A program made the position numbers and the translations under genes. Below are positions 5,850 to 52,530 of a DNA stretch of 64,000 bases, in pieces. The DNA is from Granulicella sp. 5B5 (lineage in GTDB: Bacteria > Acidobacteriota > Terriglobia > Terriglobales > Acidobacteriaceae): NCBI RefSeq assembly GCF_014083945.1, contig NZ_CP046444.1, positions 124,001-188,000 of the forward strand, read 5' to 3'. The stretch's first letter is position 1; every line of letters starts with the position of its first letter. The notes below the pieces were generated by a model. It saw nothing but the letters and a program-made list of their open reading frames with translations. It was not told the origin of the DNA and did no database searches.

Positions 5850-5986
5850 GCAAAAAGGATACCCGTCAGTCCATTTTCCTGTTGCGTATATCCGAGCGAC
5901 AAGATCCATCCTCCTTGCATCCTTTCCATGCCTGTCCTGTGATTAGAGGCTGCCATCGCATTTTTCTCTAGGGTGTAGTTCGCATC

Positions 5987-6075
5987 TATATGTCGCGCCT
6001 TCAGCGCTCAGGACTGCGATTGGCCGATTCCCTAGGCCTTCGGCCTAGGCTGATATATGTCGCGCCTTTGGCGCT
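5987..6075. repeat. Intergenic repeat cluster: two 22-bp direct repeats flanking a palindrome
   Basis: Two 22-bp copies beginning TATATGTCGCGCCT lie at 5987-6008 and 6054-6075 and match at 20 of 22 positions. Each contains a GC-rich inverted repeat (GCGCC-TTT-GGCGC in the second). Between them at 6031-6049 is a perfect palindrome, CCTAGGCC-TTC-GGCCTAGG (8-bp stem). The cluster occupies the 389-bp space between a hypothetical gene and the pectinesterase; no coding sequence was seen in this space. It may be part of a dispersed family, a transcription regulator site, or a terminator/processing hairpin. Confidence 0.7.
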
Positions 6076-6238
6076 GAAAAGCGAGCGGCTATCCTTTGAG
6101 AGAAATGCTCTAACTGATGAGTAACGAAGAGGTTACTGGTTGGCTAGAGGACTTCTGCGCTGGACGATGGTTGCCAGATTCCTGTATACAGTTTGGGTAA
6201 TCAGTCTGACTTATTCTGGTTTTGGACAGGGCCCGGTG

Positions 6239-7264
6239 ATGCGATTTAGGGAATGTGTGGTTCGGCGGATGGCCGTGATGGCTGGGGTGGCGGTGGTGTG
6301 TACGGTCGCGTATGCGGAGCGGCCAGTGGTGAGCGTGCCGAGAGACTTTAAGACGGTGCAGGCGGCGGTGGATGCGGCTCCGGCGGGGGGCAGCATTATT
6401 TTGATTGCGCCGGGTGTGTATCGCGAGAAGCTGCATATTACGACCAACGGGATTGAGCTGAAGGGGACGGGCAAGAGCCCGGAGAAGGTGGTGCTGACGT
6501 GGGACGATGGCGCTCGCTATGTGGGCGGGACGAAGAACTCGGGCAGCGTGAATGTGACCGCGGATGACTTTACGGCGGAGAACCTGACGATCCAGAACGA
6601 CTTTGAGCGGACCCATGACAGGAGCGAGGAGGGGTCGCAGGCGGTGGCGCTGATGATGACGGGCGACCGCGAGGTGCTGCGGCATGTGCGGCTGCTGGGG
6701 TATCAGGACACGCTGTATGCGAACAGCAAGACGTGCCACAACAGCAGCGATGCGACGGACAAGCCATGCCATGCTTCGCGGCAGCTGTTTGAGGACTGCT
6801 ATATCGAGGGGCACATCGACTTTATCTTCGGCGATGCGAAGGCGGTGTTCGACCACTGCGAGATCCATGCGGTGGCACACCAGATTGTGACGATCACGGC
6901 GCAGAGCCGGCTGTATCCGGAGGAGGACTCGGGTTACCTGTTTCTGCATACGACGATCACAGAGGCCAAGGGCGTAGGGCAGATGTACTTCGGGCGGCCG
7001 TGGCGGCCGTACTCGCGCGTGTATTTTGTGGACACGGTGCTGAAGGATGCGGCGATCACTCCGGTCGGGTGGCTGGAGTGGGGCGGGCGGTTGAAGACGA
7101 GCGACTATGCCGAGTATGGGACAGTCGATGCCGAGGGCAAGCCTGTCGATGTGGGTGAGAGAGTTTCGACCTCGCGGCAGCTGACGAGCGACGAGGCGAA
7201 GGGGCTGAGTGTTGAGACATGGCTGACAGGCACGGACGGCTGGAACCCAGCGTCGGTGCAATAG
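6239..7264 (+). CDS. Secreted pectin methylesterase (CE8)
   Basis: The chosen start ATG 6239 gives 341 aa beginning MRFRECVVRRMAVMAGVAVV, a signal peptide cleaved near AYA-ER. The long reading from 6140 has no signal-like N-terminus. CE8 motifs are all present: GYQDTL (Asp157, acid/base), GHIDFIFGDA (Asp194, nucleophile) and FGRPWRPYSRV (substrate-binding Arg/Trp). The fold is a right-handed parallel beta-helix. The enzyme removes methyl esters from homogalacturonan, exposing it to the polygalacturonase encoded 48 nt downstream, so the two genes probably form one pectin-degrading operon. A 15-residue Cys-containing insertion (around TCHNSSDATDKPCH) lies after the first catalytic motif. Confidence 0.95.
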   Translation: MRFRECVVRRMAVMAGVAVVCTVAYAERPVVSVPRDFKTVQAAVDAAPAGGSIILIAPGVYREKLHITTNGIELKGTGKSPEKVVLTWDDGARYVGGTKNSGSVNVTADDFTAENLTIQNDFERTHDRSEEGSQAVALMMTGDREVLRHVRLLGYQDTLYANSKTCHNSSDATDKPCHASRQLFEDCYIEGHIDFIFGDAKAVFDHCEIHAVAHQIVTITAQSRLYPEEDSGYLFLHTTITEAKGVGQMYFGRPWRPYSRVYFVDTVLKDAAITPVGWLEWGGRLKTSDYAEYGTVDAEGKPVDVGERVSTSRQLTSDEAKGLSVETWLTGTDGWNPASVQ

Positions 7265-9294: not shown

Positions 9295-9885
9295 TTATTG
9301 GCGGTTGGGGTTCGGAGGGGTTGGGGCAAGCAACCTGTGGACGGAGGTGTGTAAACGCTCGGTGATCGCGGCCTCGGAATCGTTGGGAGTGAAGTGAAGT
9401 GGCTCTCCGACAATGACTTGCAGGACTTTGGGGCGGAACCAGCCGAACGGGTTGCGGGTTTTGGGCATTGAGGAGCCGAGGATGGCGAGGGGTAGAACGG
9501 GGACTCCTGACTGCTTGACGAGGAGGCCGATGCCAGGACGAAAGTTACCCAGGGTGCCGTCTGTGGTGCGGGCACCCTCTGGAAATATGAGAACGTGGAG
9601 GCCGCGGTCGAGGGCTTCGCCGGCGTGGGCGAAGCTGCGCTGGAAGGCGTGGCGGCGGGGTAGCGGGAAGACGTTGAAGAGGGCAGTGAGGAGCAGGTAG
9701 ACGAGTGGGCCGGGCGGGTAAAGGCGGTCGGGGTGGGTGAGGCTTTCGGGATTGCGGAGGTGGCGGTAGTCGTAGAGCATCTCGCCGGCCATGGCAACGG
9801 CGAGGTAGCGGCGGATGGAGCCGGGGAGGGCGTAGGTGAGCAGCGGGACATCGTAGGTAGTGACGTGGTTGGCGACGAGGAGCAT
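9295..9885 (-). CDS. PlsC-type acyltransferase domain (3' part of a frameshifted fusion gene)
   Basis: The 196-aa reading from ATG 9885 contains the acyltransferase HX4D motif at its very start (NHVTTYD), then IFPEGARTTDG and the PVLPLAI block of 1-acylglycerol-3-phosphate acyltransferases. A normal PlsC domain has some 40-70 residues before HX4D. Those residues are present upstream in the same frame without a stop (YPHWPWSPPIRWLRTLFTEL, then LILRPLVSLLANP), continuing to about 10149. They join the carrier-protein end of the preceding gene. The start at 9885 is therefore probably artificial, and this is the C-terminal domain of an acyl-AMP ligase-ACP-acyltransferase protein broken at 10150-10153. 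Confidence 0.85.
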   Translation of the reverse strand: MLLVANHVTTYDVPLLTYALPGSIRRYLAVAMAGEMLYDYRHLRNPESLTHPDRLYPPGPLVYLLLTALFNVFPLPRRHAFQRSFAHAGEALDRGLHVLIFPEGARTTDGTLGNFRPGIGLLVKQSGVPVLPLAILGSSMPKTRNPFGWFRPKVLQVIVGEPLHFTPNDSEAAITERLHTSVHRLLAPTPPNPNRQ

Positions 9886-16116: not shown

Positions 16117-16325
16117 CGGTGCAGGACGGTTCAAGGCTTAATCGAAGGTATCACCGCGATGCCGCTAACGCATTGGAGGCATTTGGAGAAAGTATCTTCA
16201 CTCTTATACTGTAGGGGCTTCCCACGGGACATGACAGAGACAATCCGGGGAACCGGAAGAGCTTGTGGATCGTACTGAGCCTTGTCGCATCCATTCGAAA
16301 TAAGAAGCAACTGGAGATGTATACC

Positions 16326-18626
16326 GTGAGATTGAGGCATTGGCAGGCAGCGGCCTGTGTGGCTACCACTTTGTTGTCGACGCTGCCGCCAGGTGTGATG
16401 CAGGCGCAGCAGGGGAGCTCGAAGTCGCAACAACAGATGGAGCAGGAGTTCAATCAGTTGTCGCGTCCGACGACCGTTGCCAAGCCTAAGGCCGCCACAC
16501 AGATAGCCGCCCTGCAAACTCCGGCCATTACGCCGCCTGCCGCTGCGACACAGACAACGTCCCCGGCTCCGGTGGCACCGCAGCCCGCAACGGTGTACGT
16601 TCCACCGCTGCCAACGCCCAAGCCCCGGCAGACGCAGGTGAGCCCGGTGGTCCCGGCTCGACCTGCGACGGTTGTGAATGACACGACCGGCACGAAGGGC
16701 CTGCCCCAGGCACCTGCTCCGAAGCTGACAGAGCCGCTGTACATGCGGCCGAGCCTGAGGGATTACAGCAAGGGCAAGCCGGGATATAAGGACCCGTTCC
16801 TGTGGTATACGGCGACGAACTATCCGCAGACGCGGCTGAGCAACTCGCCGCAATTGGATGACCTGTTGCGGGATGGCAAGATCTATCTGAGCCTCTCGGA
16901 TGCGGTGACGCTGGCGATCGAGAACAACTACGATATTGCGATTGCGCGGATCAACCTGGACATTGCGGACACGGACATCGAGCGTGCGAAAGCTGGACAG
17001 AGTCTGCGCGGTGTTTCGACCGGCATTGTGGCGAACACGCTGGGCGGTACGACCTCGACCATTACCGGCGGCGGCGGGCCGGGCGGCACCAGCAGCGGTA
17101 CAGGCGGTGGCGGCGCGGGTGCTTCAGGACTAGTGTTGAGCACCAACGGTGGTGGACCGACGCCGGAGCCACGCGATCCGTTGATCACCGGCACCTTGGA
17201 GTATGAAGATCTGCTGTCGCCCCAGAGCAACATCCTGCTGGGTGCAAACCTTGCAGCGCAGTACATGAAGACCAGTACCTATAACTTCACGTACCAGCAG
17301 GGATTTGCAACGGGAACACTATTTACTGCGACGTTCAATAACAACCGCATCACAACGAACAACCCTTATAGCGAGTACAACCCGTCGTTGACCTCGAGCG
17401 TTCGATTCCAGGCGACGCAACACCTGTTGCAGGGTTTTGGGCCGGCGATCAACAGCCGCTTTATTCTGCAGGCGAAGAATGACCGCCGCATTACGGACTC
17501 GGCGTTCCGCGAGCAGCTGCTGTACACCATCAACCAGGTGGAGAACATCTATTGGAGCCTGGTGAGCGCGTATGAGGACGAGCAGGCAAAGGAACGCTCC
17601 CTGGCGCAGTCGACGCAGTTGAGCGCGGACAACCGCAAGCAACTGGAGATCGGCACACTGGCGCCGCTGGATGTGGTGAACTCGGATTCGACGGTGGCGG
17701 CAGACCGGCAGGCGCTGATCGCGTCGCAGACAAACCTGGAGTACCAGCAGTTGCTGATGAAGCAGGCGATTGCACGCAACCTGAACGATCCGCAGTTGGC
17801 GACGGCGCCGGTGATTCCGACTGACCGCGTGGCGCTGGACCGGCTGCCGGAAGAAGATATGCCTATCGAAGGCCTGGTGCGTGAAGCCTACGAGAACAAT
17901 CCGCAGATTGAGCAGGCTGTTCTGAATATGAAGAACAACCAGATCACGATCAGAGCGGAGAAGAATGGGCTGTTGCCGACGGTGGATGCGTTCGGATTTT
18001 ATGGCGGGAGCGGAATCGGCGGCACCGGGTTGACGACTGCGGACCCGATTACGGGACAGCCGGTATCGCTGCCCTCTTCGGGGTTGGGAAGCGTATTGCA
18101 GAGCGAGTTCAACAACAGCTCGCCGGACAAGGGTTTTGGTGTGAACGTCACGATCCCGCTGCGGAACCGGACGGCGCAGGCTGACCAGGTGCGGTCTCAG
18201 ATGGAACTGCGGCAGTCGGAGATGCGGCTGCAGCAGCTGTACACGCAGATCCGGATTCAGGTGATCAATGCGCAGTATGCGTTGACGAATGACCGCGCGC
18301 AGGTGGCTGCTGCTCGGGCCTCACGCGACTATGCGATGCAGAGCCTCGATGCCGAGCAGAAGAAGTACAAGCTGGGTGCTTCAACGACAGCCAATGTGCT
18401 GCAGCAGGGAAGGACGCTTGCGATTGCGGAGAACACGCTGATCTCGGCGACGGCGGCGTATGCGCGTGACCGTGCGGCGTTGCTGGAGCTGGTGTCGAAC
18501 ACTCTGGATCGCTACGGCATCAGCGTGAATGACTCGTCGTATGGTCGGGTGGCCTCGCCACCGGTGATTCCTGGATTGACGGCGCCGCAGCCTCTACCGG
18601 CTGTGAAGCCGATCGGTTCGCGATAA
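16326..18626 (+). CDS. TolC-family outer-membrane efflux protein
   Basis: The 766-aa protein starts at GTG 16326, chosen because GGAG lies 9 nt upstream; ATG 16317 abuts that site. A signal peptide ends near VMQAQQ. A Pro/Ala-rich low-complexity segment (about residues 60-130) precedes two repeated OEP halves. The first contains LSLSDAVTLAIENNYDIAIA and the second ALDRLPEEDMPIEGLVREAYENNPQI. Long amphipathic helices end in LLELVSNTLDRYGI. A Gly-rich insert (GGGGPGGTSSGTGGGGAG) interrupts the first half. Such proteins form trimeric channels for tripartite exporters; no adaptor or pump gene is adjacent. It is longer than classical TolC (about 470 aa) because of the N-terminal extension and inserts. 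Confidence 0.88.
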   Translation: MRLRHWQAAACVATTLLSTLPPGVMQAQQGSSKSQQQMEQEFNQLSRPTTVAKPKAATQIAALQTPAITPPAAATQTTSPAPVAPQPATVYVPPLPTPKPRQTQVSPVVPARPATVVNDTTGTKGLPQAPAPKLTEPLYMRPSLRDYSKGKPGYKDPFLWYTATNYPQTRLSNSPQLDDLLRDGKIYLSLSDAVTLAIENNYDIAIARINLDIADTDIERAKAGQSLRGVSTGIVANTLGGTTSTITGGGGPGGTSSGTGGGGAGASGLVLSTNGGGPTPEPRDPLITGTLEYEDLLSPQSNILLGANLAAQYMKTSTYNFTYQQGFATGTLFTATFNNNRITTNNPYSEYNPSLTSSVRFQATQHLLQGFGPAINSRFILQAKNDRRITDSAFREQLLYTINQVENIYWSLVSAYEDEQAKERSLAQSTQLSADNRKQLEIGTLAPLDVVNSDSTVAADRQALIASQTNLEYQQLLMKQAIARNLNDPQLATAPVIPTDRVALDRLPEEDMPIEGLVREAYENNPQIEQAVLNMKNNQITIRAEKNGLLPTVDAFGFYGGSGIGGTGLTTADPITGQPVSLPSSGLGSVLQSEFNNSSPDKGFGVNVTIPLRNRTAQADQVRSQMELRQSEMRLQQLYTQIRIQVINAQYALTNDRAQVAAARASRDYAMQSLDAEQKKYKLGASTTANVLQQGRTLAIAENTLISATAAYARDRAALLELVSNTLDRYGISVNDSSYGRVASPPVIPGLTAPQPLPAVKPIGSR

Positions 18627-25630: not shown

Positions 25631-26230
25631 ATGTATTGGCAGCGCAAGGCCGGAGTGGCACTGATGGCGGCAGGTGGTCTGCTGCTGGCGGCTTTTGTCG
25701 TGCCGACGGTGTATGGGCGCGCGATGTCGCATCTGGCTGTGGCGGAGTTTCGCGCTGAGAGCGGGAGTCACCGGCTGTGGGACAGTGCGCGCATCCGGGC
25801 GTATCAGCGAACGCTGGCGATGGTGATGCCGACTCCGGAGGGAGTGCTACGGGTGCCTAAGGCGGGGATCGAGGTGCCGGTGTATGAGGGCACGAGCGAT
25901 CTGGTGCTGAACCGTGGTGTGGGCCACGTGACTGGAACGGCGCTGCCGGGTGAGGCGGGCAATGTAGCGATTACGGGGCATCGCGATGGGTTCTTTCGCG
26001 GGCTGAAGGATCTGGCCGTAGGCGACAAAATTGAGGTGCAGCGGAGCGATACTGCGGGTGGCACCGACACATATGTGGTGGACAGGATTCATATTGTCTT
26101 GCCGGGCGATACGTCCGTCCTTAACAACACTGGAAGATCCACGCTGACCTTGATTACGTGCTACCCGTTCTATTACGTTGGCGCGGCGCCACAACGGTAT
26201 ATCGTGCAGGCGATCAAGCAGGGAGCATAG
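25631..26230 (+). CDS. Sortase (class D-like) transpeptidase
   Basis: A 199-aa protein with an N-terminal hydrophobic anchor (VALMAAGGLLLAAFVVPTVY) and the sortase beta-barrel. Catalytic residues are His117 (ITGHRDGFF), Cys177 (LTLITCYPF) and Arg189 (APQRYIV); the order and spacing fit sortases, closest to class D. ATG 25631 is preceded by TAGGAG. Sortases cleave C-terminal sorting signals and join the protein to an amine acceptor. The following gene encodes a protein with such a signal, so the pair is probably dedicated. Sortases are typical of monoderm bacteria; here the rest of the window indicates a diderm envelope, so the acceptor is unknown. Confidence 0.92.
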   Translation: MYWQRKAGVALMAAGGLLLAAFVVPTVYGRAMSHLAVAEFRAESGSHRLWDSARIRAYQRTLAMVMPTPEGVLRVPKAGIEVPVYEGTSDLVLNRGVGHVTGTALPGEAGNVAITGHRDGFFRGLKDLAVGDKIEVQRSDTAGGTDTYVVDRIHIVLPGDTSVLNNTGRSTLTLITCYPFYYVGAAPQRYIVQAIKQGA

Positions 26231-26268
26231 AGCAGGGTTAGGGCCAGCAGTTTGGTTGGAACGAACGC

Positions 26269-26296
26269 AACATCAACGGTTTGATTAACATCAACG
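26269..26296 (+). repeat. Short direct repeat in leader of the sortase substrate gene
   Basis: AACATCAACG occurs at 26269-26278 and again at 26287-26296, an 18-bp period, inside an AT-rich leader between the sortase and its substrate. Repeats spaced by nearly two helical turns are sometimes operator half-sites; no regulator can be named. Confidence 0.4.
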
Positions 26297-26331
26297 TTTT
26301 ACTGAAATATATTTTAGGAGAACAAGAGGTT

Positions 26332-27024
26332 ATGCAGATGTCCTTTCGCCACCTTGCAGTTGCTACTGTTTTCGCGTTTTCGGCTTGTTGCACGACGGGC
26401 GCCATGGCGCAGGTGAAGGCGAGCTCAGGGCCGAGCTCTACCGTGGTGTACGTCAGCGGAAACGACCTAGTGGTGAAGGCGTCCGATGGGAAGCTGCTGA
26501 ACTACAGCGTGGCCAATGGGACGATGTTCTCCGCCGATGGTAAGGAGGTGCCGCTGTCGGCGCTGACGCCGGGTACGAAGCTGACCAAGGCGGTATCGAC
26601 AGGGTTTGACCCGGACATTATTGGCGCTGTGCAGGTGGTGAAGGGCAAGGTGTTTGCCGTGACGCCGCCGGACACTGTGACGCTCTCGCTGGCTGACGGC
26701 ATCAAGGAGCTGAAGGTGCCGGAGAACACGAAGTTTTCGGTCGATGGCAAAGAGGTTGCGATCAGCGACCTGAAGCCCGACATGATGGTGGAGGCGACGG
26801 TGGTGACGACGATCGCTCCGGATGCGAAGCCTGAGGTTGCGAATGCGCCGGCGCCGAGCACACCGGCGTTGAGCGGTGCTCTGCTGGTGTTCAAGACGCC
26901 GGGTTCGGGCGATTCGGCGCTGCCGGAGGCAGGGACGAACCTGCCGCTGTATGGCCTGCTGGGTATGATTCTGCTGGCGATGGGCGCGGCGCTGACGTTC
27001 TGGCGGCGTCCGGTCCGGTCGTAG
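26332..27024 (+). CDS. Predicted sortase substrate with LPEAG sorting signal
   Basis: A 230-aa protein from ATG 26332 (ATG 26338 alternative), with AGGAG 11 nt upstream. A signal peptide ends near GAMAQ. The mature part holds two tandem repeats of about 65 residues, each with an FS-DGKEV core (residues 67-73 and 135-141) followed by a -L-P element. A Pro/Ala linker leads to LPEAGT (197-202), a 20-residue hydrophobic stretch (LPLYGLLGMILLAMGAALTF) and a basic tail (RRPVRS). That tripartite end is the layout of a sortase sorting signal; LPEAG is a variant of LPXTG. It follows the sortase gene, ends at a strong terminator, and its function is otherwise unknown. Confidence 0.85.
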   Translation: MQMSFRHLAVATVFAFSACCTTGAMAQVKASSGPSSTVVYVSGNDLVVKASDGKLLNYSVANGTMFSADGKEVPLSALTPGTKLTKAVSTGFDPDIIGAVQVVKGKVFAVTPPDTVTLSLADGIKELKVPENTKFSVDGKEVAISDLKPDMMVEATVVTTIAPDAKPEVANAPAPSTPALSGALLVFKTPGSGDSALPEAGTNLPLYGLLGMILLAMGAALTFWRRPVRS

Positions 27025-27082: not shown

Positions 27083-27111
27083 TGTACCCGGGGTGAAACG
27101 GGACGCAGACG

Positions 27112-27468
27112 AACTGGTTTGCGGAGCTGGGTGATGGCTCCGAACCCAATGTGACGATGGACCGACGGCGACCAGGGAGAGGCAGATGGAGGCAGTGTTG
27201 CTGGGACGACCGGCAACGGCGAATACTCGCGATACGGTGCTGGTGCAGTTCACGAACCCGACGGCGCAACAGGATGCGCTGGAGAACTTTACAGCGAAGC
27301 CCGCGAGTGCTGAGATGGATGGGGCTAAGGAGCCTAATTATGATGCGGGTCGGGCTGGGTCGTAAGGCAAAGGTGGTCCCGACTTTGCACAGAATGCGCG
27401 GCCGGAGATTCCGCTGGAGTACGATGGCGGGCCTTCTGCTGGGATCACCGGAGTTTCAGCGACGGTAA
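27112..27468 (+). pseudogene. Decayed 3' remnant of a DUF1800 gene
   Basis: The stretch reads as pieces of one protein tail in two frames. 27112-27185 gives NWFAELGDGSEPNVTM. 27186-27440 gives LGRPATANTRDTVLVQFTN and, after an in-frame TAA at 27363, GKGGPDFAQNARPEIPLEYD. 27424-27468 gives MAGLLLGSPEFQRR and a stop. The last block is the usual C-terminus of DUF1800 proteins (LLLGSPEFQ). DUF1800 genes typically precede DUF1501 genes, and an intact DUF1501 gene follows 106 nt downstream. A frameshift, a stop and a small deletion fusing frames 0 and 1 are needed to explain the sequence. The 5' four-fifths of the gene is absent; the sortase-substrate terminator lies just upstream. Confidence 0.78.
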
Positions 27469-37812: not shown

Positions 37813-38592
37813 TTACCGGTCGATGGAGAACTGGTCGCGGCGGTTCTGCTGCCAGCAGCTATCGGTCTCCTCGGTGCAGAACTGACGCTCCTTGCCGTAG
37901 CTGACGACGCGGATGCGGTGGCCGTCGACGCCTGCCGCCACAAGGGCCTGCTTGGCAGCGTTGGCACGGTTCTCACCCAGCGTGATGTTGTACTCCACCG
38001 AACCACGGTCATCGCAGTAGCCTCCGATGAGGACCTTGATGTTCGGGTTTGCGTTGAGATAGGACGCAGCGGATGAGATGGAACCCTTGGCATCGGCGCG
38101 GATGTCATAGCTGTCGTAGTCGAAGAAGATGTCCTGCACATGCTGGTGGAAGATGGCGTCCTGTCCCATGTCGCCTTCGCCGGAGGGCGTGGTGGGCATG
38201 GAGGGCACGCGCACGGTCACGCGAACGCTGGCATCGGTGGTGCCGCCGTCACCCTTGGCGACAAGGTGGAAGTTCGTCGAGGCAGAAGGAGAGACTGTCT
38301 GCGTGCCGTTCACGGGCACGTTGCCAATGCCGTCGATGGAGACGCTGGTGGCATTGGTGGTGCGCCAGTTCAGGACGACCGACTGGCCGAGATCAATTGA
38401 CAACGGATCGGCGGAGATGGTTGCCGTTGGCGCTGCTGCGCCTTCGGTCGGAGCCATGGCCGCGGGAGGGGTGTTGTTCTTCTTGTGGCAGCCCGTGACT
38501 GCCAGCATCCCAACGGTAAGGGCAAGCGCTACAGCAGACCAGCCCTGCTTCAGCACTACCTGCTTCATGACCCGCGATCGATCGTTTGTCAT
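37813..38592 (-). CDS. pal: Peptidoglycan-associated lipoprotein Pal (OmpA-like)
   Basis: A 259-aa lipoprotein; ATG 38568 (eight residues shorter) gives a more typical signal and is an alternative. The lipobox is LAVTGC (Cys35). An inserted Ig-like segment follows (ATISADPLSIDLGQSVVLNW through VRVTVRVP), unusual in short Pal proteins. The C-terminal OmpA domain has IFFDYDSYDIRADA, VLIGGYCDDRGSVEYNITLG, ENRANAAKQAL and RIRVVSYGKERQ, binding meso-diaminopimelate peptidoglycan. It tethers the outer membrane and works with TolB. The C-terminus carries a Cys pair (FCTEETDSC). Confidence 0.93.
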   Translation of the reverse strand: MTNDRSRVMKQVVLKQGWSAVALALTVGMLAVTGCHKKNNTPPAAMAPTEGAAAPTATISADPLSIDLGQSVVLNWRTTNATSVSIDGIGNVPVNGTQTVSPSASTNFHLVAKGDGGTTDASVRVTVRVPSMPTTPSGEGDMGQDAIFHQHVQDIFFDYDSYDIRADAKGSISSAASYLNANPNIKVLIGGYCDDRGSVEYNITLGENRANAAKQALVAAGVDGHRIRVVSYGKERQFCTEETDSCWQQNRRDQFSIDR

Positions 38593-38753: not shown

Positions 38754-40106
38754 TTATTTCCAGCTCCAGTTGGGCATGTCGGTTCCAGCACCGGTCAGGA
38801 CGCGTTTTTGGGTTCCGTCCGCCAGCATGGACATGATGCGAGAGGAGGAGTCGCGGCCGTTGGGCTCGTTGGCAAAGACGATGTGACGGCCATCCGGTGA
38901 CCAGGACGGGAAGTCGCAGCGCCCAATGTCATGAGTGAGTTGTATCCAGCGCTTGGTGGCGATCTCCATTACATAGATGTCCTGGCCGCCGGGTGCGCCG
39001 GGGCCGTACTTGCGGTCCCAGGCAAAGGCGATGAACTGGCCGTTGGGCGACCATGAGGGCGAGGTGGCATAGCCGCCGTCGGTCATCCGAACGACACCCG
39101 AACCGTCGGCATCCATGATGTAGAGCTGGGGAAGGCCACTGCGCCCGCTGATCCAGGCGATCTGCGCGCCAGTCTTGGGGTTCCAGGTGGGTGAGACGTC
39201 CGGCCCGGCGAACGAGGTGACGCGGTGTGCCAGCGAGCCTTGCGGATCGGAGATCCAGATCTCCGGATCGCCTGTACGGGAGCTGGAGAAGGCGATCTGC
39301 TCGCCGCTGGGCGACCACGCGGGCGACAGGTTGGTGCCGCCGACTGAGCTGAAGGCAACCATGCGGCCCAGCAGCAGCGAGTACATCTTGATCTGGAAGC
39401 CGTTCTTACCGAGCGAGCTGAAGGCCACGCGAGAGTTGTCCGGGGAGACGCGCGGGCCGATGGCGACCTCACCGAGGTGCGTCAGCTGATGCTGGTTGGC
39501 GCCGTCGTAGTCCATCATCCAGATCTCTTTGCTGACACCCGCTTTGCGGGTGTAGAAGATCTTGGTCTCGGCGATGCCAGCGGTGCCGCCGAGCCGGAGG
39601 ATGATGTCGTCGGCGAACTCATGTGCGGTCTGGCGGGCGCCTTCGTCGCCGGCGTCGTCGGTGTAGAGCTTGGTGAAGATCTGGGGGTACTGCGTGTTCT
39701 TGGCGTCGTCGAGAAAGCCGTTGACGACGACCTTGCCGTTCTGCACGGAGAAGTTGCCGAAGGCCACATAGGCGGCGCTAGCGGGCGCGACCGACCACTG
39801 GCTGAGGTTCATCTCAGCCTGATTGCCGGGCGTGACCTCGGGGTTCTGGCTCTTGGAGACCACGTCGAAGATGCCTGCGGAGGCGAGATCGGCGTAGAGC
39901 GTCGCGTCGAAGACATGCTTGGCCTCGGCTGCGGAGGGATCGCCGCCCATCGGCTTGAAGTCTGCCGCGGCGAGCCGCGTGCTGGCGGAGGCGTTCTTAC
40001 CCGTCTCCAGGATGTTCCAGTCCTGACTGTAGGCGGTGGCAGAGACGGACAGCGTGAGCAGAGCGCTGAAGGTGGTGAGCAGTAGGCCTTGGCGGGTTGC
40101 GTTCAT
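38754..40106 (-). CDS. tolB: Tol-Pal system beta-propeller protein TolB
   Basis: A 450-aa periplasmic protein from ATG 40106; the open frame upstream lacks signal character. A signal peptide ends near ATAYSQ. The N-terminal domain (VFDATLYADLASAGIFDVVS; FADDIILRLGGTAGIAETKI) precedes a six-bladed WD40-like propeller with repeated SPDNSRVAFSS, SPSGEQIAFSS, WNPKTGAQIAW, SPNGQFIAFAW and SPDGRHIVFAN. TolB relays between Pal and the TolQRA motor. Length and order are typical. Confidence 0.96.
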   Translation of the reverse strand: MNATRQGLLLTTFSALLTLSVSATAYSQDWNILETGKNASASTRLAAADFKPMGGDPSAAEAKHVFDATLYADLASAGIFDVVSKSQNPEVTPGNQAEMNLSQWSVAPASAAYVAFGNFSVQNGKVVVNGFLDDAKNTQYPQIFTKLYTDDAGDEGARQTAHEFADDIILRLGGTAGIAETKIFYTRKAGVSKEIWMMDYDGANQHQLTHLGEVAIGPRVSPDNSRVAFSSLGKNGFQIKMYSLLLGRMVAFSSVGGTNLSPAWSPSGEQIAFSSSRTGDPEIWISDPQGSLAHRVTSFAGPDVSPTWNPKTGAQIAWISGRSGLPQLYIMDADGSGVVRMTDGGYATSPSWSPNGQFIAFAWDRKYGPGAPGGQDIYVMEIATKRWIQLTHDIGRCDFPSWSPDGRHIVFANEPNGRDSSSRIMSMLADGTQKRVLTGAGTDMPNWSWK

Positions 40107-40191
40107 CGTTCTCGGGGCTCCAGTGTTCGTTGCGGGGAGGGTTATGCTTCCATACGTCTGATGCATAAGACTGTGCGGATTTTATTTCGTA

Positions 40192-40986
40192 TCACGACTG
40201 GTGGTAATCAAATTTGAACTCGATAGGGAGCTGGCTGCCAGCTCCAGCTGGGAGTGGCCCAAAGGAATCAACACGTTGGATGGCGCGCATGGCTGCCTGA
40301 TCGAGTGTAGGTGAACCGCTGCGAGTCTCGACGTGCAGGTCGGAGACGGAGCCGTCGGACTGAATGTAGAAACGGAGTACGACGCTGTGGCCCTGTGAGG
40401 CGCGAGGGTCGGCTTCGTTGGGGTTGTAGTTCTGGTTGACCAGTTGACTGACCAGGCGCAGGTAATAGGTATAGCGCTGGCCAAAGGTCTTGTCTTCGAC
40501 CGTGACGGTGGCGGTGCCGTTCTTGAGCTGGGAGATGGACTGCGGGAGCTGTGTCGCGGCGTCTCCGCTGGCAGCTTTGGGCGTGACGGGCGTGGGCTGC
40601 GGATGCTTGGGGGCCGTGACAACCGTTGGCTTGGGGATGGCCTTCTCGGGAGTCTTGCCTTTGATGAGGACGTCGTCGGGGCGGGGTGGCGGCTGCGTGG
40701 TCTCCTTGGGTTGCGGAGCGGGAACGGGCGTTACGTTGTCCGAGGCGAGCACGTTCTTGTCGATGGGCGCGGCCTTGGGCGGAAGCGGGATCGCGGAGAC
40801 CATGCTGGCCTGGATGGAGCCTGACTGCTGCTGGTTCTCGCCCCACTTGGGTCCGTGGATGTGCGCCATGATAGCGAAGCCCGCGATGACTGCAGCGGCT
40901 GCGATGTGGAGCCCGATCGCCCACGTGAGTCCTCGACCGAGATGGTCGAACTCCTGGGCGTGGCTCGTGTTGGCGTAAGTGGCCAT
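40192..40986 (-). CDS. TonB-C-terminal energy transducer in the TolA position
   Basis: A 264-aa protein from ATG 40986. One N-terminal transmembrane helix (AIGLHIAAAAVIAGFAIMAH) is followed by a long Pro/Lys-rich periplasmic linker (PVPAPQPKETTQPPPRPDD, TVVTAPKHPQPTPVTPKAAS). The C-terminal domain has RYTYYLRLVSQLVNQNY, SVVLRFYIQSDGSVSDLHVE and ALDQAAMRAIQRVDSFGPLP-type blocks of the TonB/TolA fold. Between tolR and tolB it must serve as TolA, though the sequence is TonB-like. It could also energise TonB-dependent receptors such as that at 48.7 kb; that is inference. Confidence 0.88.
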   Translation of the reverse strand: MATYANTSHAQEFDHLGRGLTWAIGLHIAAAAVIAGFAIMAHIHGPKWGENQQQSGSIQASMVSAIPLPPKAAPIDKNVLASDNVTPVPAPQPKETTQPPPRPDDVLIKGKTPEKAIPKPTVVTAPKHPQPTPVTPKAASGDAATQLPQSISQLKNGTATVTVEDKTFGQRYTYYLRLVSQLVNQNYNPNEADPRASQGHSVVLRFYIQSDGSVSDLHVETRSGSPTLDQAAMRAIQRVDSFGPLPAGAGSQLPIEFKFDYHQS

Positions 40987-41022
40987 CGTTCTCTTCAAAA
41001 CCGGGTCGTGCGCAAAGGTTTC

Positions 41023-41432: not shown

Positions 41433-42227
41433 CTAGATGGACCTCCGGCGGCCGTCTTCCTGCGGCTGGGACTGCGGTGTCTGCGGCTGGAAGAGCGCGG
41501 CGTTCTCGATGGCGTTCAGCAGCTCACGGCCAAAGTCGTCCATGCGTGAGGCGAACTCACGCAGCCGCGCGGTCAGCTGGTTGTAGCCAACCAGCGCGGG
41601 GATAGCGACGACGAGGCCCGCAGCGGTGGTGATAAGGGCTTCCGAGATGCCTGGCGCGACAGCGCGGAGAGTAGCTGCACCAGCGGTCCCGAGGCCGTGG
41701 AAGGCGTTGACGATGCCCATGACTGTGCCGAAGAGGCCGATGTAGGTGGCCGACTGAGCGATCGTCGCAAGCCATGTCAGGCGGTGCTCCATCTGCGTGA
41801 GCGCCTCGCTGGAGGCGGTGAGCGCGGCGCGCTCCATCGCCGCCGGGTTGGGCGGGATGCCGCGGCCGCCGCTCTGGCGCTGGTACTCGTCGTGGATTTC
41901 GTTGAAGACCGAGACCAGCGGGCTGGGCTTGAACTGGTCGGCGACGTGCGCGATCTCGCTCAGGCGGCCGGATTTGCGGAAGGCGCGCAGGAAGCGGTTG
42001 CTCTGCTTTTCCGCCGAGCCAAAGGCGCGCCACTTGGAGAGCATCACAGCCCACGAAAAGATGCTGGCGATGAGCAGGATTCCCAGCACGGTCAGTGCGA
42101 CGGGGCCGCTGTTGTGCAGCATCTCCACGATGGCGCTGCCGTTGTTGCCGGCAGGCGCCGTAGTGGTGGAGTCGGGAAGGGTCGATGTCGCGTCTTGGAG
42201 GAGGAGGGCAAAAGCGAGCAGAGTCAT
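41433..42227 (-). CDS. tolQ: TolQ/ExbB proton-motor subunit
   Basis: A 264-aa inner-membrane protein from ATG 42227 (TTG 42239 adds four residues). Three membrane helices are seen: ALTVLGILLIASIFSWAVML, TWLATIAQSATYIGLFGTVM and EALITTAAGLVVAIPALVGY. The motif GLFGTVMGIVNAFHGLG and the conserved threonines are those of the MotA/TolQ/ExbB family. It is the first gene of the tol cluster, divergent from recN with 158 bp between starts. Confidence 0.94.
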   Translation of the reverse strand: MTLLAFALLLQDATSTLPDSTTTAPAGNNGSAIVEMLHNSGPVALTVLGILLIASIFSWAVMLSKWRAFGSAEKQSNRFLRAFRKSGRLSEIAHVADQFKPSPLVSVFNEIHDEYQRQSGGRGIPPNPAAMERAALTASSEALTQMEHRLTWLATIAQSATYIGLFGTVMGIVNAFHGLGTAGAATLRAVAPGISEALITTAAGLVVAIPALVGYNQLTARLREFASRMDDFGRELLNAIENAALFQPQTPQSQPQEDGRRRSI

Positions 42228-42385
42228 AGCGTCTATCAAGTAGTGTACCGTTGCCGTTTGTGCGTTGTATCGGAGGGCGAACCTTGTTTGGTACGAAGGC
42301 CCCTGCTTTCATTTGGATGCAACTTTTGACGGCTGCTATCCAGAGCGCCTCCTGCTATGCTCTCGGTGAAAGAGACTCTGACCCG

Positions 42386-48561: not shown

Positions 48562-48660
48562 GTTTTTGTGCGCCAAAGAAAACGATTTCTCGAATCTCGT
48601 GTAATCGCTTCCAAAGAGCCGGATACAGGCATGGCATTGCAGTTTTTGGGAGAGTTCAGT

Positions 48661-51600
48661 ATGTCGACGTCCTTGAAGTGCGCGCGGGTCCGTTTGTTTT
48701 CATTCCTGCTTGTTGTCATTGCCACAGTTCCGGTGATGGCGCAGTCGGTGCGCGGCGCCATCGGCGGAAGCGTCACCGATACAACCGGAGCGCTCATCCC
48801 GAATGCAACCATCACGGCCACGAACCAGGACACGGGGGGCAAGAACACAACGCACAGCACAGGTGCCGGTGTGTATAGCTTCCCCGATCTGCCGATCGGA
48901 CCCTACACGGTCACTGTTTCGGCGAACGGCTTCCAGACCAAGACCAGCACGGGCGTTCTGGTGACGGTCAACAGCACCATCGCTTTGAATGTGTCGCTCG
49001 GCTCCGGCCCGGTAAACGAGGTGGTGACGGTCGATGCCAGCGGTCTGCAACTTCAGACTGAATCCTCCGACATCGGCGGCACGATTTCAAACAAGCAGGT
49101 CGAGGACCTTCCTCTGTCCCTCGCATCCGGTGTTGGCGGTTTGCGCTCGCCTGAGACGTTTGTCTTCCTGATTCCCGGCACGACCGGGCCAGGCAGCGGT
49201 ACTTCAGGAAACACCGGCAACGGCGTCTTCTTCTCAAGGCTGAGCGGCGGGCAGGCCTACGGCGCCGAGGTACTGCTGGATGGCGCCAGCATCCAGCGCA
49301 GCGAGAACGGATCGTCCTTCGATGAGACTTCGCCCTCCATCGAAGCCCTGCAGGAGTTCAAGGTCACCACGTCTGCTCCGTCTGCCGAGTTTGGCCGTAC
49401 AACTTCGGGCATTGAAAGCTTCTCGACCAAATCCGGAACCAACGAGTTCCACGGTATCGCCTATGCCATCGTGAAGAACCGCATCTTCGACGCGAACAAC
49501 TGGTTCAATGACGGCTACAAGGTGCTGGATTGCGCAGGGGTGTCCGAGGTCAACTGCGCGTACAGCAAGCCGCAGGACAGCAAGTACGACTACGGCGGGG
49601 TTTTCAGCGGCCCCGTGTGGATTCCGCACCTCTACAACGGCCACGATAAGACGTTCTTCACGTTTGCCTGGGAAAAGTATCAGTACCGCCCCGGTACCGT
49701 GATCGTGTCGACTGTGCCGACCGCGGCTGAACGCGGTGGTGACTTCAGCGACATCCTGGGCGGATATATTCCAGGCGGAAGCTCGTACAACGGGGTGAAC
49801 AACATCCTGGTGAACCCGTGCAACAACAATATGCCTGTGTTGTACAACCAGATTTATGACCCATCGACCACAATGCAGGCCAGCCCCGGCGTTTTCTGCC
49901 GTACACCGCTCAGCGGCAACCAAATCCCGACCAACTACTTGAGCCCGACGGCGCAAAAACTGGTGAACGGGCTTCCCCTGCCGAACCAGACGCCCCAGAG
50001 CACCGACGTGTTCGGCTACATCGGCAACTACGCTCAGACCGGTGTATCGCCCAACAACAATACGACCTATACGATCCGCATCGACCAGAACCTGGGCCAA
50101 CGGAGCAAGATCTTCGGGTCGTACAACACGCGTCAGAACTTCAAGCTGACCGCAGCCCCGGACTTCCCCGAACCGTTCAATAACAGTGGCTACGTGCAGA
50201 CCTTCACCACCCACTATGGACGCGCCGGATGGGATTACAACATCACACCGACGTTGCTGAACCACCTGAACCTCGGCTACAACCGCACAAACAGCGTGAA
50301 CCTGTCTTCGGAGTTCATGACGAGCGATACGGCGGCGGCGGCTGGTCTTGCCAATGACTATTCGAAGTTCTTTCCGACGATCTCATTCCCAAGCCCGGAT
50401 GCGCCTTCCAACTGGGGCCAGCAGCAGAACGGCATCAATATCGACAACGGCATACGCGTGAACGATGTCGTGACGTGGGTGAAGGGCAGGAATAACATCC
50501 GGATGGGCGTGGACTATCGCAATCAGCGGTACTCCACCAACCTGTACAACGTGGACAACTTCAACTTCTACCGCGACCAGTCAGCGGGCGTTAGCAACAC
50601 CTGCTGCGGTTCCGGCAACCCGTTCGCGAGCTTCCTGATGGGTGAAGTGGGCCAGGCGGGGCAGACGGTGTACAACGTGAACCCGCGCTGGAAGTCGTGG
50701 TACATCGCCGGCTTCATCCAGGACGACATCAAAGTGACCAGCAACCTGACGATCAATGCGGGCTTGCGTTACAGCATCGACAACCCGCGGCATGAGGCGC
50801 TGAACCGCACATCGAACTTCAGCTTCACAGCCCCTGATGCCGCTGCTGGCGGTCTGCCGGGGGCGCTGGTCTTCGGCACCACATGCGGCAACTGCAACAC
50901 GGCGTGGGCGGACACCTGGTACAAGGACATCGCCCCGCGCGTCGGTTTTGCGTACGTGCTGCCAGGTACCCATGGCAAAGCAGCCTTGCGTGGAGGCGCA
51001 GCGATCATCTATGGGCCGCTGCAGTACAACGACTTCGGCGGCAGCATGCTGCAGGGCTACAACATCAGCAAGAGCGTGGCGCTGGGCGGCACCGCTACGC
51101 AGGGCGGTGCGTTTACGCCGGCGTTCCGGCTCGATTCGGCTTCGCCTGCCGATCCACAGAACTCCAACATCGGCTTCCCGAATTACAGCTACGCCCCGAA
51201 CACGGACCCGACACAGTTGACCGCGCAGAATGGGCCTGGCTCGTTCCAGGCCGTTGCCGGCGACCTGATTCTGCCAAGAGATGGCCGGCCCTCGATGACG
51301 AGTAACTGGAGCCTCCAGCTGCAGGACCAGATTGCGCAGGACCTGATCTTCTCTATCGGTTATATCGGTGAGGTGGCGCAGGACCTGCGTTCGGGCTTCC
51401 TTACCAACTTCAACAACATCGACACGAAGTACTTCGGTCTTGGCGATCTGCTGAGCAACTCGCAGTACAACATCCCGCTTGGCGGGACGAGCAATGGCTA
51501 CGCTGCGCCGTACTCGACCTTTACAGGTCCCATCGGTCAATCGCTGCGTCCGTTCCCGCAGTATGACTATATTGCGGACGATTGCTGCCTGGAGAACCTT

Positions 51601-52530
51601 GGGCACTCTTCGTATCATGCGCTGGTGACTTCGCTTGAGCGCCGGTTCCGCAACGGCCTTAACCTGCAGGCGTCGTACACGTGGTCGAAGACGCTCACCG
51701 ATGCGGATTCGCTGATTCCTTTCAGCTATACGTCAAACAACCAGCGCGAGCAGGCGCAGTACTCGACCAACCTGAAGGGCGATAAAGCGGTCAGCGTTCA
51801 GGACCTGACGAACCAGTTCTCACTGAGTTATCTCTACGAGCTGCCATTTGGTGAAGGACGAAGATGGGCCAACCATAGTCGAGGCCTGGACCTGCTCGTG
51901 GGCGGATGGGAGGTGGGCGCGATCCAACGCTACTCCAGCGGACAGCCGATTGGCTTTGGTTGCGCGACCGGCATCCCCTACTACCAGAACTGCATCACGT
52001 TCGATGCCGGGCCTGCGTCACTTGGCGGCAAGACCTTTGCGAGCTCAGCCTACCAGGCGAACAAGAACGGCCCCAGCGTCTTCAATGGAGAGTCCTGGTT
52101 CAAGCCGGCGTATCGAGTTGCGGGAACGAATGGAGCGAATGATCCCGGTGTCCCGATGTCGCAGGCCGCGTTTGTCGATCAGAACCGCGAAGGCGTCGGG
52201 TGGGCGCGGCCGTACTCACCGAACTGTGGAACATCCGCGCAACCGTGCTCCTTCGCGCCGTTTGCTCTCGGCAACCTCGCGCGCGTTACCGAGGCGATTA
52301 CGGGACCGCGTTATCTGGCGGAGGACATCAGCCTGCTGAAGAACTTCCACATTACGAAGACAGTTACCTTCCAGATGAAGGGCGAGGCGTTCGATCTCTT
52401 CAACCGGCATCGGATGGCTCTTCCGGACCTTGCGCCGAATGACTCGTCGCAAAACACTGGATTCGGTATTCCGACTGCCGTCGATTATGGCCCGCGCAAT
52501 ATGCAACTTACGGGGAAGATCATCTTCTAA
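48661..52530 (+). CDS. TonB-dependent receptor with N-terminal carboxypeptidase-regulatory-like domain (Oar-like)
   Basis: A 1289-aa outer-membrane protein from ATG 48661, with GGGAGAG 7 nt upstream. A signal peptide ends at VMAQS. A beta-sandwich CarboxypepD_reg-like domain follows (about 30-115: GGSVTDTTGALIPNATITAT, YSFPDLPIGPYTVTVSANGF). The plug has VLLDGASIQRSENGSSFDET and EFKVTTSAPSAEFGRTTSG. The remaining about 1000 residues form the barrel, ending in LTGKIIF with a C-terminal Phe. Large receptors of this kind are characteristic of Acidobacteria. Position between GH43 and GH54 genes suggests uptake of arabino-oligosaccharides. No SusD gene accompanies it. Confidence 0.95.
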   Translation: MSTSLKCARVRLFSFLLVVIATVPVMAQSVRGAIGGSVTDTTGALIPNATITATNQDTGGKNTTHSTGAGVYSFPDLPIGPYTVTVSANGFQTKTSTGVLVTVNSTIALNVSLGSGPVNEVVTVDASGLQLQTESSDIGGTISNKQVEDLPLSLASGVGGLRSPETFVFLIPGTTGPGSGTSGNTGNGVFFSRLSGGQAYGAEVLLDGASIQRSENGSSFDETSPSIEALQEFKVTTSAPSAEFGRTTSGIESFSTKSGTNEFHGIAYAIVKNRIFDANNWFNDGYKVLDCAGVSEVNCAYSKPQDSKYDYGGVFSGPVWIPHLYNGHDKTFFTFAWEKYQYRPGTVIVSTVPTAAERGGDFSDILGGYIPGGSSYNGVNNILVNPCNNNMPVLYNQIYDPSTTMQASPGVFCRTPLSGNQIPTNYLSPTAQKLVNGLPLPNQTPQSTDVFGYIGNYAQTGVSPNNNTTYTIRIDQNLGQRSKIFGSYNTRQNFKLTAAPDFPEPFNNSGYVQTFTTHYGRAGWDYNITPTLLNHLNLGYNRTNSVNLSSEFMTSDTAAAAGLANDYSKFFPTISFPSPDAPSNWGQQQNGINIDNGIRVNDVVTWVKGRNNIRMGVDYRNQRYSTNLYNVDNFNFYRDQSAGVSNTCCGSGNPFASFLMGEVGQAGQTVYNVNPRWKSWYIAGFIQDDIKVTSNLTINAGLRYSIDNPRHEALNRTSNFSFTAPDAAAGGLPGALVFGTTCGNCNTAWADTWYKDIAPRVGFAYVLPGTHGKAALRGGAAIIYGPLQYNDFGGSMLQGYNISKSVALGGTATQGGAFTPAFRLDSASPADPQNSNIGFPNYSYAPNTDPTQLTAQNGPGSFQAVAGDLILPRDGRPSMTSNWSLQLQDQIAQDLIFSIGYIGEVAQDLRSGFLTNFNNIDTKYFGLGDLLSNSQYNIPLGGTSNGYAAPYSTFTGPIGQSLRPFPQYDYIADDCCLENLGHSSYHALVTSLERRFRNGLNLQASYTWSKTLTDADSLIPFSYTSNNQREQAQYSTNLKGDKAVSVQDLTNQFSLSYLYELPFGEGRRWANHSRGLDLLVGGWEVGAIQRYSSGQPIGFGCATGIPYYQNCITFDAGPASLGGKTFASSAYQANKNGPSVFNGESWFKPAYRVAGTNGANDPGVPMSQAAFVDQNREGVGWARPYSPNCGTSAQPCSFAPFALGNLARVTEAITGPRYLAEDISLLKNFHITKTVTFQMKGEAFDLFNRHRMALPDLAPNDSSQNTGFGIPTAVDYGPRNMQLTGKIIF

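Follow-up and report, generated by a model that had tools for sequence, protein, structure and literature searches.

A sortase gene of Granulicella sp. 5B5 and the gene that follows it are best explained as a two-gene unit that would anchor the second gene product to the periplasmic peptidoglycan, a reading that is favoured here with some confidence. That the sortase processes the adjacent substrate is very probable from the sequence comparisons. Both genes are found on the forward strand of the window, which is the whole stretch of 64,000 nucleotides that was analysed.

Textbooks describe sortase anchoring as a trait of bacteria with one membrane. The host is, by its gene content, a diderm. 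Among the Pfam matches in the window are an outer-membrane efflux protein (16263-18626), an OmpA/Pal-like protein (37813-38592), a PD40/TolB-like protein (38754-40166), a TonB C-terminal protein (40192-40998), a MotA/TolQ/ExbB protein (41433-42239) and an outer-membrane beta barrel (48568-52530). The initial annotation had listed Tol-Pal, TonB receptors and a TolC protein as the diderm context; the TolB-like, OmpA/Pal-like, TonB C-terminal and efflux proteins are in keeping with this, but the Pfam scan of selected window ORFs gave one large receptor-like barrel and not several. L,D-transpeptidases (PF03734) were found in all six genomes checked, with and without sortase, and the sortase is therefore no replacement for them.

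The sortase and the substrate gene

The features of the pair are the following:

25631..26230, + strand: sortase gene, 199 aa, PF04203 (E 3.3e-32), N-terminal membrane helix, class D-like
25973..25975, + strand: codon of Thr115, two residues before His117; Ala at this position in most examined sortases
25979..25981, + strand: codon of the catalytic His117, invariant (96/96)
26159..26161, + strand: codon of the catalytic Cys177, invariant (96/96)
26195..26197, + strand: codon of the catalytic Arg189, invariant (96/96)
26316..26321, + strand: AGGAGA, from the sequence the likely ribosome binding site for the gene of the substrate
26332..27024, + strand: putative sortase substrate, 230 aa, with signal peptide, two repeats, linker and sorting signal
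26437..26622, + strand: repeat 1 (residues 36-97), small beta domain by sequence comparison and predicted model
26623..26826, + strand: repeat 2 (residues 98-165), small beta domain with OB-like model, by sequence comparison and predicted model
26920..27021, + strand: C-terminal sorting signal, LPEAGT + helix + WRRPVRS, matched by the signal profile A3

The complete set of catalytic residues is present as annotated, and the three are invariant in the alignment of 96 sortases. The protein scores 111.3 bits with the sortase superfamily model PF04203, far above the gathering cut-off of 26.6. Its two best NCBIfam models are both of class D, but NF058671 (SrtD) is missed by 1.9 bits (138.1 against a cut-off of 140) and NF033746 by 38 bits (127.2 against 165). 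Among the relatives NF058671 is passed by L066 (147.7) and L063 (142.5) and failed by L044 (126.9), which belongs to the window's own branch. The window sortase is on these scores class D-like, below the curated class D cut-offs. By sequence, the closest chain of solved structure is 2ln7 (E 1.1e-17).

The two genes are separated by 101 bases. The substrate most likely starts at the ATG in position 26332, downstream of the AGGAGA, rather than at the TTG in position 26281. A scan for promoters and terminators gave nothing above chance: one promoter-like site lies between the two genes, at 26285-26313, where 0.6 would be expected, and one terminator-like site lies within the sortase gene, where 1.3 would be expected. 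The lipoprotein reading of the signal peptide (FSAC-C) was rejected. The Cys is not conserved in alignment A2, so that cleavage ahead of Gln27 by the ordinary signal peptidase is preferred.

The substrate ends at 27024 in the manner first described, with LPEAGT (residues 197-202), a predicted helix (204-224) and the basic C-terminus WRRPVRS. The rule used for C-terminal signals is satisfied by two of the 277 stop-to-stop ORFs of at least 100 aa in the window, the substrate included, and by 228 of 20,000 shuffles of the substrate tail. With the LPXTG model TIGR01167 the C-terminus is marginally above the cut-off (16.0 against 15.9, E 0.015), the Thr of motif position 4 being replaced by Ala, and with the LPxTATN model NF058670 it is below it (18.0 against 32).

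The two tandem repeats are homologous by sequence comparison, as had been proposed: aligned pairwise they score 70, while shuffles average 24.4 and none of 2000 reaches 70, and the profile-profile probability is 99.5. The description of the domain as uncharacterised agrees with the Pfam search, which gave no convincing family match. A profile search for solved relatives of the substrate gave a best E of only 0.062, and Foldseek with the models of the whole substrate and of repeat 2 gave no match at E <=0.001. The AlphaFold model of the entire protein, with a mean pLDDT of 72, has two small beta domains; repeat 2 modelled alone reaches pLDDT 81 and pTM 0.60. In the structure comparison repeat 2 gave Z of 6.4 with a lexapeptide dehydratase subunit, 6.3 with CusF (56 residues), 6.2 with RuvA and 5.5 with eIF5A, rows that are within 1 Z of each other with the top one tied and, being under 8, not decisive. 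These middling values point to a resemblance of the modelled repeats to OB-like barrels.

The nearest relative of the pair is L142, an Acidobacteriaceae metagenome assembly and the nearest named record, with a substrate that is 80% identical. Relative to L142, dN and dS are 0.125 and 0.765 for the sortase, 0.142 and 0.577 for the substrate and 0.136 and 0.451 for the 34 codons of the substrate tail. With dN low compared to dS, both genes therefore appear to be under purifying selection and to be maintained.

The already described class GN pairs resemble the window pair in that a Gram-negative sortase has a single dedicated target next door (TIGR03784/TIGR03788; PMC3237569, accessible text). 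Acidobacteriota do have such pairs, the targets being VIT/VWA proteins; at L219 the target scores 712.7 bits with TIGR03788 and the sortase 211.5 with TIGR03784. The window sortase scores 82.3 with TIGR03784, far below the cut-off of 158.25, and is placed outside the tree branch with L219 and L209, and the different substrate beside it has no VIT or VWA match. Class GN identity is refuted by these scores, and there is next to no probability that the window pair is this marine proteobacterial type.

Occurrence in the genome, the substrate family and the phylum

The genome (3,928,701 bases, 3.93 Mb; one contig, 99.77% complete) contains one sortase match, which is that of the window. The only significant match of the signal profile A3 in the genome is the substrate (E 1.5e-18; next best 0.11), whose own score is not independent because the 14 rows of A3 include the window tail. 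The proposal of a dedicated substrate is supported: one sortase, one significant signal. Two congeners have no sortase, and A3 gave no significant signal in either, the lowest E values being 1.21 and 0.62. One of the two is L231, where the gene that is found upstream of the pair is directly followed by a DUF1800 gene; in L142 the sortase-substrate pair sits between the same two genes.

The window itself contains a frameshifted 3' remnant of the DUF1800 gene at 27100-27467, corresponding to roughly the final 120 residues of a 775-aa product. The gene is open in L142 (6052-8379) and L231 (3580-6093), and the window DUF1501 gene downstream of the remnant is open.

The family of the window substrate was counted as 41 non-duplicate members, after the duplicates L144, L148, L160, L161 and L224 had been dropped. 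A sortase is adjacent in 31 of the 33 members with the tail and in none of the eight tail-less ones; Fisher's test gives 4.7e-7 when related members are treated as independent. Four of these eight have the helix only and four have no helix; L053 and L163, both tail-less, may be truncated genes, and without them the count is 0/6. The two tail-bearing members with no adjacent sortase, L048 and L192, are from genomes that have sortases elsewhere. For L048 this includes a sortase of the same branch (L059), which is found on another contig with no near signal. Four further matches are outside the count: at G217:C481 the match covers the tail and is found beside a sortase match, and at G427 and G237:C1:1903255 the matches end before the tail with no sortase match nearby, all of which fits the pattern, while at G232:C18 the match covers the tail with no sortase match on the contig, against the pattern.

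The C-terminal layout is accordingly conserved among the homologues beside sortases, and the tail is, by this distribution, a modular suffix. Suffix behaviour on homologous proteins has been described for LPXTG and PEP-CTERM (PMC3237569, accessible text). It has very little probability that the helix merely retains the substrate in the inner membrane, with the LPEAG and the neighbouring sortase as coincidences. Four homologues (L052, L146, L149 and L159) do have a helix with no LPxT and no sortase beside them, but the motif tracks the sortase within the family, and the contrasts of near with far sequence and of one strand with the other hold across the 95 sortase loci described below.

Genome G366 has three copies of the repeat protein, two of them anchorless (L198, L199) and the third with tail and sortase (L197), so that soluble and anchored natural forms occur side by side. 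In L048 a 97-aa ORF at 9473-9766 with a near-identical LPKTA tail is a partial duplicate, 2.7 kb from the full-length substrate at 5901-6794. L143 has an acidobacterial-type substrate-sortase pair in a record titled Betaproteobacteria, which is probably a misassigned metagenome bin. The pair is also found in Edaphobacter modestus, a culturable and non-pathogenic member of the Acidobacteriaceae, where the substrate beside the sortase at L154 has an LPKTG motif.

Sortases were found in 48 of the 120 sampled genomes of the family and in 81 of the 396 sampled genomes of the phylum. The first set comprised 101 regions, of which six, fetched for substrates, are sortase-less, leaving 95 sortase loci. 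At 79 of these a C-terminal sorting signal lies no more than 2.5 kb away on the strand of the sortase, and at 16 none was found. In total there were 84 near signals on the same strand, a few of them spurious (e.g. L182 LPSGN), against five near ones on the opposite strand and seven far ones (4 and 3), with 529 kb of near and 503 kb of far sequence covered. Of the 68 regions in the second set, 51 yielded a motif under the profile rule and 17 did not. Some of the regions with no signal or motif are cut by contig ends. The commonest motif is LPxTA, with 41 against 22 LPxTG among the 79 and 33 against 10 among the 51.

Sortase and signal pairs thus recur across Acidobacteriota, and protein anchoring is probably common here too, as judged from the loci compared. 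The suggestion of a diderm sortase with a dedicated substrate holds, but not as an isolated oddity, an interpretation that was rejected because such pairs are found at 79/95 loci; Gram-negative pairs had also already been described for class GN.

Several other substrate types were found. One consists of very small proteins directly before the sortase with LPxAGS-like motifs. In L063, L071, L073, L077, L078 and relatives these are ORFs of 87-248 aa with Ala, Gly or Ser at motif position 4, a PLLSVIGFGVLVGG-like helix and neighbouring genes in common. Another type is represented by L066 (3456-6090), where the order and family were checked: a small LPxTA substrate, an acidobacterial VWFA protein (TIGR03436) and the sortase. 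VWFA proteins related to that of L066 are found in a cluster of 21 loci (12 among the matches listed). A third type has MPxTG motifs and forms a cluster of seven loci; the MPxTG substrate tested, L180, has a peptidoglycan-binding domain (PF01471).

Position 4 of the motif and residue 115 of the sortase

The LPEAG motif of the initial annotation is present in the window but is an exception, since position 4 is Thr in 112 of the 132 motifs from sortase neighbours. Among the 33 tail-bearing family members Ala is found at this position in the window (LPEAG), L142 (LPEAG) and L222 (LPLAG), and Thr in the other 30, including L143, whose motif is LPRTA in the alignment (the script had chosen a wrong stretch). 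The sortases of the window, L142 and L222 form one branch with support 100/100 in a tree whose bootstrap is not fully settled. This branch nests in a group of 23 sortases (100/94), comprising these three, 18 with a Thr motif and two for which no motif was found. Residue 115 is Thr in the three sortases and Ala in the other 20.

In S. pyogenes SrtA the methyl group of the motif Thr faces A140, two residues before His142, and V206 (PMC9520033, accessible text). Both partners have thus changed at a likely contact, the motif from Thr to Ala and the sortase from Ala115 to Thr. The catalytic residues of S. aureus SrtA are His120 and Cys184, with 118 and 182 each two residues before. A laboratory enzyme, eSrtA(4S-9), evolved from it for LPEXG with X = A, C or S, carries A118T in the table of a review, which is the position and the change of the window Thr115; according to the accessible text of the review the residues 104, 118 and 182 jointly set the position 4 specificity (PMC9126251). 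Unlike the window sortase, it belongs to class A, and eight further changes are listed for it. The parallel is incomplete, since this enzyme also has I182V (PMC9126251), whereas the window has Ile at the corresponding place. Ile is found two residues before the Cys in the window and in 14 of the 20 non-Thr pairs.

In the first 81 pairs, with the doubtful L080 omitted and manually assigned motifs for L178, L182 and L200, Ala115 is found with 65 of 69 Thr motifs and with none of 12 non-Thr motifs. The prediction for the residue two before His was fixed beforehand, and unseen hold-out loci were then fetched. The 51 hold-out pairs, in which L322/L323 and L324/L325 have identical tails, comprise 39 with Ala and Thr, four with neither, four with Thr only in the motif and four with Ala only in the sortase (Fisher 0.015). 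Agreement in 43 of 51 is a partial success, and the four new agreeing non-Thr pairs resemble in their tails the small-substrate type already seen and add no independent origin. In each of the four misses that combine Ala with a non-Thr motif, the motif is LPQGG and the best model of the sortase is class GN, three sortases being over the TIGR03784 cut-off and L292 0.65 bits under it. The four misses with a Thr motif have Val (L266), Ser (L288, class GN; L317) and Leu (L311). When both sets are pooled, Ala occurs with 104 of 112 Thr motifs and another residue with 16 of 20 non-Thr motifs.

A crude parsimony test gave p 0.0004 for coincident change, a value that deserves little weight, since one of the three changes is on a doubtful deep branch that joins two groups kept apart in the better tree, and column 115 was chosen after looking. 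Other columns, e.g. 143, 141 and 153, associate more strongly with position 4 than 115 does, which probably reflects one clade. Non-Thr motifs comply with the rule outside class GN, in two sortase groups alone, and the rule fails within class GN; on these alignments it is a good lead and not a law.

Proposed mechanism and relation to known systems

The proposed protein-anchoring unit of sortase and substrate would work as follows. The substrate would be exported via Sec by its signal peptide and be held in the inner membrane by the C-terminal helix, steps that are proposed because of the anatomy of the substrate. The sortase would be in the inner membrane with the catalytic domain facing the periplasm, where Cys177 would cut LPEA|G and form a thioester. 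The new C-terminus of the substrate would then be transferred to an amine, the likeliest being the meso-diaminopimelate side chain of the thin peptidoglycan or of its lipid II precursor. As a result, two small beta-barrel repeats would be tethered to the periplasmic peptidoglycan.

Peptidoglycan is the reasonably likely acceptor, by analogy with B. subtilis SrtD, for which meso-diaminopimelate is the suggested acceptor (PMC3222306, accessible text), and because of the peptidoglycan-binding domain of the L180 substrate. It is unlikely that the substrate is instead linked to an outer-membrane glycolipid, an extracellular polysaccharide or, as a polymer, to another copy of the protein. Glycolipid anchors do tether the type IX sorted proteins of other diderms (PMC7468200, accessible text), and a glycan acceptor is still compatible with the data, but L180 is one substrate of the phylum that points to peptidoglycan. 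Against a polymer stands the score of 85.4 with the class C model NF033745 (cut-off 160), on which a class C (pilin) sortase and pilus assembly were rejected. A sortase that only cuts, with water as acceptor and release of the repeats into the periplasm, is rather improbable: the anchorless homologues L198 and L199 indicate that the domain can work in soluble form, but indirectly they also argue against release, since soluble homologues need no sortase and the device would seem redundant. Attachment to peptidoglycan remains the preferred reading.

The described class D motifs are LPNTA for Bacillus anthracis SrtD, LPDTS/LPDTA for B. subtilis YhcS and LPQTGS for Clostridium perfringens (PMC4498605, PMC3222306, accessible text). 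Likeness to this class is seen in the best models, in the nearest solved chain and in LPxTA as the commonest motif of the phylum. The C. perfringens SrtD gene is also in an operon with the gene of an LPQTGS protein (PMC4498605; PMC3222306). The window pair differs from class D in its diderm host, the scores below the cut-offs, the Ala at position 4 and a substrate with no Pfam family. The PEP-CTERM/exosortase and GlyGly-CTERM/rhombosortase systems likewise have a tripartite C-terminal signal as a suffix on homologous proteins (PMC1569441, PMC3237569, accessible text), but their enzymes and motifs are unrelated to those of the window pair.

Six sortases have been counted in Solibacter (PMC3174227, accessible text). 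A search of the accessible literature gave no account of class D-like sortase-substrate pairs in Acidobacteriota, of their substrates or of the position 4 exchange. Within the literature covered these three appear to be new, while sortase counts for Acidobacteria and the Gram-negative pairs of class GN are known.

For the phylum as a whole, a tentative picture, put at slightly under even chances, is that Acidobacteriota have a widespread class D-like route that fixes proteins to the thin diderm peptidoglycan, with several unrelated types of dedicated substrate, and that at the cleavage residue the enzyme has co-evolved with its substrate, where Thr shrank to Ala and the facing Ala grew to Thr as in laboratory evolution. 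The genome with one enzyme and one substrate, together with congeners that have neither, is a clean test case, and the exchange of Ala and Thr is a specific prediction on sortase specificity that is testable with peptides. If the picture is true, diderms would have a route to peptidoglycan-bound proteins other than the L,D-transpeptidases, and in a large soil phylum these proteins would be dedicated ones.
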